Source: Candidatus Kuenenia hertensis
Lineage (GTDB): Bacteria > Planctomycetota > Brocadiia > Brocadiales > Brocadiaceae
Assembly (NCBI GenBank): GCA_021646465.1
Contig: SOET01000039.1
Location: 1-40,984, forward strand
Reading direction: 5' to 3'
DNA length: 40,984 bases
Below the pieces are notes generated by a model. That model was not told where the DNA came from and did no database searches. It saw nothing but the letters and a program-made list of their open reading frames with translations. Position numbers and translations under genes: made by a program. The first letter of the stretch is position 1, and every line of letters starts with the position of its first letter. Positions 1,383-2,189 of the stretch are shown one piece after another.

Positions 1383-2189
1383 TTAAAAATCCAGGCATAT
1401 TTCCCGTATTTCTTCTTGAATCCCAAGTTTTCTTATTACTGTTTCGAGTGATCTCTTTTCCTGAGATGCTAATATCTCCAGACGTCCTTTTCCTGCCGCA
1501 GTAGTAAAATTTCCTTCCAATAGCTTTGTCGCTTTTTCGGCGACGAGCTTTGCCGGGTCTATTAAATGAAGCCCTGGCCTTAGTGTAGTAAAATATTCAT
1601 TTAAAAAAGGGAGATGTGTACTCGAAAGAGTAATTGTGTCAACTAAGTTATCAATTTCATCCAGCATTGAAAGTTCTTCTGAGATCACCTGACGGCTTTT
1701 TTCTTTATTTGATAAAAAATCCCCCGTTTCCACGAGCTCTACCATCCTGGAAGCATTAAATTTTGTAATCTTTACCGGAGACGGAATATTCTGCGATTGT
1801 ATATACTCGTCGAGTTCTAAACTCTTTACCGTGTTTTGCGTTGCCAAAATAGCGATATGTCCTGTTTTTGATACCGTTATTGCCTCATGTATCGGTGGAA
1901 ATACTCCTATAATTTCACTATCGTTTTTTTTGATTTCATGAAGCACCTGAATGGAAGGAGTATTGGAGGCAAGCACTATGAGCTTTGGGCTGAAATTTTT
2001 AGAAAGATACTCGATTGTGTTTTGAACAATGTTTAATAGTTCAGTATGTGTTTTTTTCCCATAAGGAAAGTGTTTTTTATCTGCGAGATAAATGTAATTC
2101 TCGCAGGGCAACGCATTTCTAATTTCCTTTATTATTGAAAGGCTTCCAACTCCTGAATCAAAAATTGCTATTGGGTTTTCGTTGTTCAT
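1383..2189 (-). CDS. glutamate racemase homologue with both catalytic cysteines replaced by serine
   Basis: A 268-residue member of the Asp/Glu racemase superfamily with the MurI signatures FDSGVG (residues 10-15), PYG (42-44) and a THLP motif (191-194). MurI makes D-glutamate for peptidoglycan using two cysteines, in the motifs ACNTA and GCTH. Here the equivalent segments read LASNTPS and LSSTHLP, so both cysteines are serine (S75, codon TCC; S190, codon AGT). The length is normal and the frame intact, so the fold is probably kept. Cys/Cys racemase chemistry should be lost or much weakened. A non-catalytic role, another substrate, or a separate true MurI elsewhere are all possible. Transcription probably continues into the DUF362 gene. 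Confidence 0.8.
   Translation of the reverse strand: MNNENPIAIFDSGVGSLSIIKEIRNALPCENYIYLADKKHFPYGKKTHTELLNIVQNTIEYLSKNFSPKLIVLASNTPSIQVLHEIKKNDSEIIGVFPPIHEAITVSKTGHIAILATQNTVKSLELDEYIQSQNIPSPVKITKFNASRMVELVETGDFLSNKEKSRQVISEELSMLDEIDNLVDTITLSSTHLPFLNEYFTTLRPGLHLIDPAKLVAEKATKLLEGNFTTAAGKGRLEILASQEKRSLETVIRKLGIQEEIREICLDF

Follow-up and report, generated by a model that had tools for sequence, protein, structure and literature searches.

One gene of the window (the whole stretch of 40,984 nucleotides analysed here), which comes from an anammox-type bacterium, encodes a neofunctionalised protein of the MurI fold, in which serines occupy the positions of both catalytic cysteines of glutamate racemase. 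This Ser/Ser protein almost certainly belongs to a separate MurI-derived subfamily, real, conserved and apparently uncharacterised, in which the serines would replace the thiol proton shuttle. It is very probably no functional thiol racemase, and the automatic annotation as "glutamate racemase" is probably mistaken. The best explanation as a whole, a MurI-derived Ser/Ser enzyme that carries out thiolate-free chemistry on a glutamate-like compound while another enzyme makes D-glutamate, has about an even chance of being correct.

The protein reads IVLASNTPSIQV around S75 and TITLSSTHLPFL around S190, and both serines align on the cysteines of the CNT and CTH motifs of Bacillus subtilis RacE and of other solved MurIs. 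The frame starts with ATG, encodes 268 residues and has no internal stop. Thus, the preliminary description was right in reporting an intact frame with both catalytic cysteines changed to serine. Its statement that the rest of the signatures are intact holds for part of them. According to the alignment with solved MurIs, the active-site set besides the cysteines is retained (the FDSG Asp and Ser, the PYG Tyr-Gly, Asn-Thr behind the first catalytic position, Glu, and Thr-His behind the second), all in columns that vary little or not at all, including the pocket residues D11, Y43, G44, E154, T191 and H192. However, GxGG has become GxGS, NTA(S/T) NTPS and GCTHY SSTHL, and a third cysteine of MurI is Ala146. 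Positions of all features are given in Table 1.

Table 1. Location of the Ser/Ser gene, its catalytic-site codons and the other genes discussed (window positions, or positions within a named locus).
Feature	Position	Strand	Evidence or remark
Ser/Ser MurI-like protein, 268 aa	1383..2189	(-)	ORF, translation, TIGR00067 151.2 bits, AF2 pLDDT 93.8
Ser75, codon TCC	1965..1967	(-)	Aligns with C74 of B. subtilis RacE, the first catalytic Cys
Ser190, codon AGT	1620..1622	(-)	Aligns with C185 of B. subtilis RacE, the second catalytic Cys
Tat-signal DUF362 protein, 354 aa	305..1369	(-)	PF04015 67.7 bits, TIGR01409 25.7 bits, both obtained without the first Met
Methyl-accepting chemotaxis protein, 1036 aa	2825..5935	(+)	Divergent from the Ser/Ser gene
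GDH-like-MurI fusion, ~916 aa	L074:8457-11207	(-)	G000, contig C19; also L079, L077, L082, L081, L075
Shorter fusion, ~720 aa	L152:8588-10747; L156:8310-10475; similar loci	(-); (+)	Family f4
Diiron oxidase copies of G022, 237 aa each	L076:4609-5322; L075:12192-12905	(-); (-)	~11 kb apart
Diiron oxidase and 525-aa GltS-like gene pair	L074:12357-14718	(-)	Also L149, L150, L151, L153, L154
Molybdopterin oxidoreductase/aminotransferase protein, 1137 aa	L074:2715-6128	(-)	

Profile comparison with Asp/Glu racemase families confirms a MurI-like and not aspartate-racemase-like protein: its score passes the cut-off of TIGR00067, the NCBIfam glutamate racemase profile (146.65 bits), whereas the asp_race profile gives only 24.6 bits. 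The Pfam search returned no family, the gathering score of PF01177 not being reached. An AlphaFold2 model built from 36 sequences (mean confidence in Table 1) has as its best PDB match 1zuw_C, B. subtilis RacE with D-Glu (TM 0.87, E 6e-21). By prediction, therefore, the protein has the MurI fold and keeps most of the glutamate pocket. It shares with MurI/RacE (TIGR00067; 1zuw, 2jfn) fold, length and pocket, at 27-28% identity to the solved structures, but these have both catalytic cysteines, the third cysteine, GxGG, NTA and GCTHY. Furthermore, D11, S12, G13, T117, T120, E154, T191 and H192 are invariant among 36 MurI-type proteins, including five anammox Ser/Ser proteins. Judging from the alignment, Ser75 and Ser190 would both face the ligand of the cleft.

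A survey of 59 genomes (that of the window, G000, and relatives) identified orthologues in six of them, query included, with 61-87% identity to the query. The carriers are G000 and its congeners G001 and G002 (genus g1), together with G022, G025 and G027 from two other genera; the gene of G027 is split across two contig ends. All six orthologues, from separate assemblies, have serine at both sites. In a phylum sample of 392 genomes, no further Ser/Ser protein was found: with the first match outside the Ser/Ser set, the score falls from 500 to 123 bits, and each of the ~60 other MurI domains examined in the phylum is Cys/Cys. Scans of viral contigs for a viral origin of the gene gave no relatives.

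Among the five orthologues compared at codon level, the first serine is encoded by TCC or TCT and the second by AGT or AGC. Each is one base from a cysteine codon, yet they belong to different serine codon families and vary only synonymously, which points to two separate changes that were retained. In three within-genus pairs, omega is 0.11-0.19 (dS 0.7-1.0), close to that of nadC from the same window (0.12) and above that of purD (0.055). This low omega, joined to serine codons that change only synonymously, indicates that the protein is maintained. The gene shows one trait of a MurI pseudoenzyme, catalytic residues lost under purifying selection, the other trait being a lack of catalytic activity. 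A decaying or mis-assembled murI would account for the loss of both catalytic residues, but its probability is negligible: there are six separate assemblies, the frames are intact, omega is low, the sites use two serine codon families with synonymous variation only, and relatives occur in two further phyla. Sequencing error and pseudogene status are ruled out by the six assemblies and the codon data.

These distant relatives were obtained by tblastn against plasmid records. One (39% identity) lies on a megaplasmid of Phyllobacterium zundukense (WP_262291953.1, annotated "Asp/Glu racemase"; locus L182), the other (36%) in a 2.1-Mb record of Fusobacterium vincentii labelled as a plasmid (locus L183). 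That record (NZ_CP084075.1) has the look of the chromosome, with murI, pyrimidine and ribosomal-protein-like genes on it. Both relatives are Ser/Ser, with the motifs ASNAPSI and TLSSTHLPW, at 35-39% identity, and a characterisation was found for neither. Their TIGR00067 scores (99.4 bits for Phyllobacterium, 97.4 for Fusobacterium) are under the cut-off, and PF01177 gives the Fusobacterium protein 25 bits for a gathering score of 31. They have ASNxPSI and TLSSTHLP in common with the window protein and fall in the same clade, but differ from it by their neighbourhood and by Ala at S12 and T77 (FDAG, SNAP). These two changes suggest that their ligand may differ, or that catalysis may be lost altogether.

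In a maximum-likelihood tree, seven Ser/Ser proteins are separated from 32 Cys MurIs with support of 100/100, and the clade keeps an SH-aLRT of 100 after deletion of the two motif stretches. In eighteen columns, the Ser/Ser set has an invariant residue that is rare in the Cys set; examples are Ser16 (Gly in the Cys set), Ser75 (Cys), Pro78 (Ala), Ala146 (Cys), Ser189 (Gly), Ser190 (Cys) and Leu193 (Tyr). Thus, the subfamily is marked by GG to GS, ACNTA to ASNxP, GCTHY to SSTHL and the replacement of the third cysteine by alanine, while D11, G13, G15, Y34, D37, P42, Y43, G44, E154, T191 and H192 are common to both sets. The same serine pair preserved in three phyla indicates a separate protein family and not a broken gene. 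The clade lies outside the family's own MurI, so that a recent conversion of the latter was considered and rejected. A MurI conserved but for two replacements, as initially pictured, is not supported: about 18 subfamily-specific columns are different, and the gene is no recent derivative of that MurI. By contrast, the initial idea that the gene has been selected for a changed role and is not decaying is supported: the pair is found in 6/6 orthologues and also in two further phyla, stays unchanged over deep divergence, and belongs to a clade of its own under strong purifying selection.

The thiolate is the accepted base of racemases of the Asp/Glu superfamily, for which serine is a poor substitute (PMC8142540). 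For example, OpaE C90S keeps 4.8% of activity, and C199S and the double mutant at most 0.3% (PMC12661438); EcL-DER C197S has zero activity, according to a citation in PMC12838360. Natural members with one cysteine exist, as Thr/Cys and Ala/Cys dyads (PMC12838360, PMC12661438), whereas no natural Ser/Ser MurI, nor any Ser/Ser dyad in this superfamily, was found in the open-access literature. Racemases of the EcL-DER/RacX type resemble the Ser/Ser proteins in belonging to the same superfamily and in having naturally lost one cysteine, but they keep the second, which is needed for activity; all Ser/Ser members have the equivalent of Ser190 there, and thus neither cysteine. Taken together, the accepted role of the thiolate, the crippled serine mutants and the lack of two-serine members in that literature suggest that glutamate racemisation has been switched off and the pocket kept. 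By the usual thiolate mechanism, this reaction would be impossible for the Ser/Ser protein.

The peptidoglycan of K. stuttgartiensis, a likely congener of the window's organism, contains D-Glu (PMC4432595), and MurD is present in G000. The preliminary description raised the question of a second, Cys-containing murI in the genome. As a stand-alone gene, none was detected there by PF01177 or by a Cys-MurI profile; PF01177 also missed both MurI-type proteins that are present, so its silence alone proves nothing. In the same way, the Cys-MurI profile revealed no stand-alone Cys MurI in genus g1, and no murI remnant was found in g1 beside nadE, the site of the G022 copy. A second Cys/Cys MurI does exist as a domain fused to a glutamate-dehydrogenase (GDH)-like protein. 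The GDH-like part precedes the MurI domain, which has both cysteines (FACNT, LACTHY). At full length, this fusion occurs in exactly the six Ser/Ser genomes and in none other of the 59. It resembles the window protein by its MurI domain and its distribution, but differs from it in being Cys/Cys, in its GDH-like part and in the tree branch of its MurI domain. Its modelled structure (mean pLDDT 41) was too poor for use.

This MurI domain is the somewhat favoured source of D-Glu in the genus of the window. DapF, also present, is a possible second candidate by analogy with Chlamydia, where it is a source of D-Glu (PMC5885031). D-amino-acid transaminase was dropped as a distinguishing trait, since nearly all relatives have aminotransferase class IV genes, which makes the trait uninformative. 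That the Ser/Ser protein itself continues to serve the genus as glutamate racemase, its serines acting as base and acid, would agree with the NCBI equivalog cut-off that it passes, with D-Glu in K. stuttgartiensis peptidoglycan, and with a genus that has MurD but neither a stand-alone Cys MurI nor a remnant beside nadE. This is nevertheless improbable considering the crippled Cys-to-Ser mutants of the superfamily, the complete Cys/Cys domain of the fusion, DapF as another possible source, and the persistence of the Ser/Ser gene in genomes that own a Cys/Cys MurI. Such a MurI accompanies it in G022, G025 and G027, and elsewhere in the same record in F. vincentii.

Shorter fusions are found in family f4. 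They join a GDH N-terminal-like domain, devoid of the NAD domain and of the Lys motifs, to a Cys/Cys MurI-like domain with MDTG in place of FDSG. In most f4 genomes, this is the sole MurI domain found.

The Ser/Ser protein was initially described as coupled to a Tat-exported DUF362 protein. The most likely start of the DUF362 gene, at 1369, lies 13 nt downstream of the Ser/Ser gene and has its own Shine-Dalgarno-like TAAGGAG. The two genes are adjacent in G000 and G002 but not in the other four Ser/Ser genomes, and this coupling was therefore rejected as a functional clue. The co-occurrence with the fusion (six genomes) and the adjacency to an oxidase/GltS-like cluster (three genomes) are better conserved. 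In G022, G025 and G027, the Ser/Ser gene adjoins a gene for a heme-oxygenase-like diiron oxidase (CADD/BesC-like), which in G025 and G027 is directly followed by a 525-aa GltS-like gene; the cluster of G027 also includes RidA, an aquaporin and the fusion. The oxidase gene that adjoins the Ser/Ser gene in G022 is a second copy; there, the cluster that contains the GltS-like gene, RidA and the fusion is located 11-18 kb from the Ser/Ser gene on the same strand. The fusion-containing cluster and the Ser/Ser gene are on different contigs in G000 and G002, and in G001 the fusion lies ~90 kb from the remainder of the cluster. The Ser/Ser protein of G025 is nearer those of g1 (70-76%) than that of G022 (63%), whereas its fusion is nearer that of G022 (86%) than those of g1 (66-71%). 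These opposite affinities indicate different histories, with transfer between lineages likely.

Outside this phylum, the Phyllobacterium gene neighbours a serine/threonine-dehydratase-like PLP enzyme, and the Fusobacterium gene lies beside rplS-like and pyrimidine genes, as read by eye. Among the neighbourhoods compared, no neighbour gene is common to all three phyla, which counts against the best explanation.

Other features of these regions can be mentioned. The two diiron oxidase copies of G022 have identical first 30 residues. The oxidase and GltS-like gene pair is conserved across families of the order. Locus L074 also encodes, in a single frame, a protein that combines a molybdopterin oxidoreductase part with a class-V aminotransferase part. 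In the window, the sensory region of the chemotaxis protein is repeated internally, upstream of the signalling domain.

The most serious competitor of an enzyme with altered chemistry, although the less probable one, is a non-catalytic pseudo-racemase. It would serve as a subunit for ligand sensing or regulation, binding glutamate or a precursor of the cell wall and acting via a partner such as the MurI domain of the fusion. The strict co-occurrence of the full-length fusion with the Ser/Ser gene (six genomes of 59), both genes being patchy in genera g10 and g11, speaks for it, as does the fact that MurI proteins form dimers. Furthermore, the GDH part of the fusion has GGGM or GGGI in place of the GGGK motif, whose lysine is the catalytic lysine of glutamate dehydrogenase; this loss suggests that non-catalytic domains are in play. 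However, few independent events underlie the co-occurrence, because g1 supplies three of the six genomes, and no second MurI domain was found in the Phyllobacterium megaplasmid record, the part of that genome which the search covered. In addition, serine is kept exactly at both catalytic sites over ~35% identity, which is more than a mere binder needs. This retention, with no drift to other small residues, speaks for a role of the hydroxyls. An enzyme with altered chemistry rather than a non-catalytic binder is given roughly one chance in two.

Retention for a moonlighting role alone, as a MurI-type inhibitor of DNA gyrase, is very unlikely. Gyrase is inhibited by the MurIs of E. coli, B. subtilis and mycobacteria (PMC10886550), an effect that need not involve turnover. 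However, it is published for four homologues only, sequence and context give no hint of gyrase, and the conserved serines at the catalytic sites would be left unexplained.

In the altered-chemistry enzyme, the cleft probably still binds an acidic amino acid, or a compound closely derived from one, which the hydroxyls of both serines would touch. The substrate would most likely be glutamate-like, and the reaction, an accessory step of amino-acid metabolism, would proceed without a thiolate. It could be, for example, a proton transfer or a beta-elimination, on a substrate whose alpha-hydrogen is more acidic or which has a leaving group at the beta position. D-glutamate would be supplied by another enzyme, most likely the Cys/Cys domain of the fusion. 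The Cys/Cys MurI kept besides the Ser/Ser gene in F. vincentii, G022, G025 and G027 favours this explanation. Against it, the Ser/Ser gene is the only stand-alone MurI homologue in the genus of the window, so that a cell-wall role would be favoured if the fusion proved inactive. A bolder proposal, tentative and rather unlikely, is that the Ser/Ser proteins form a catalytic family performing PLP-independent chemistry on an amino acid via the serine pair and, in anammox bacteria, constitute one module with the fusion.

These data show a MurI-derived subfamily present in three phyla, whose anammox members pass an automatic glutamate-racemase cut-off without the residues that define the reaction. 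For the peptidoglycan of the genus of the window, the unusual GDH-like-MurI fusion becomes a candidate source of D-glutamate. Should the two serines prove catalytic, cofactor-independent racemases would have a wider chemistry than is known today.
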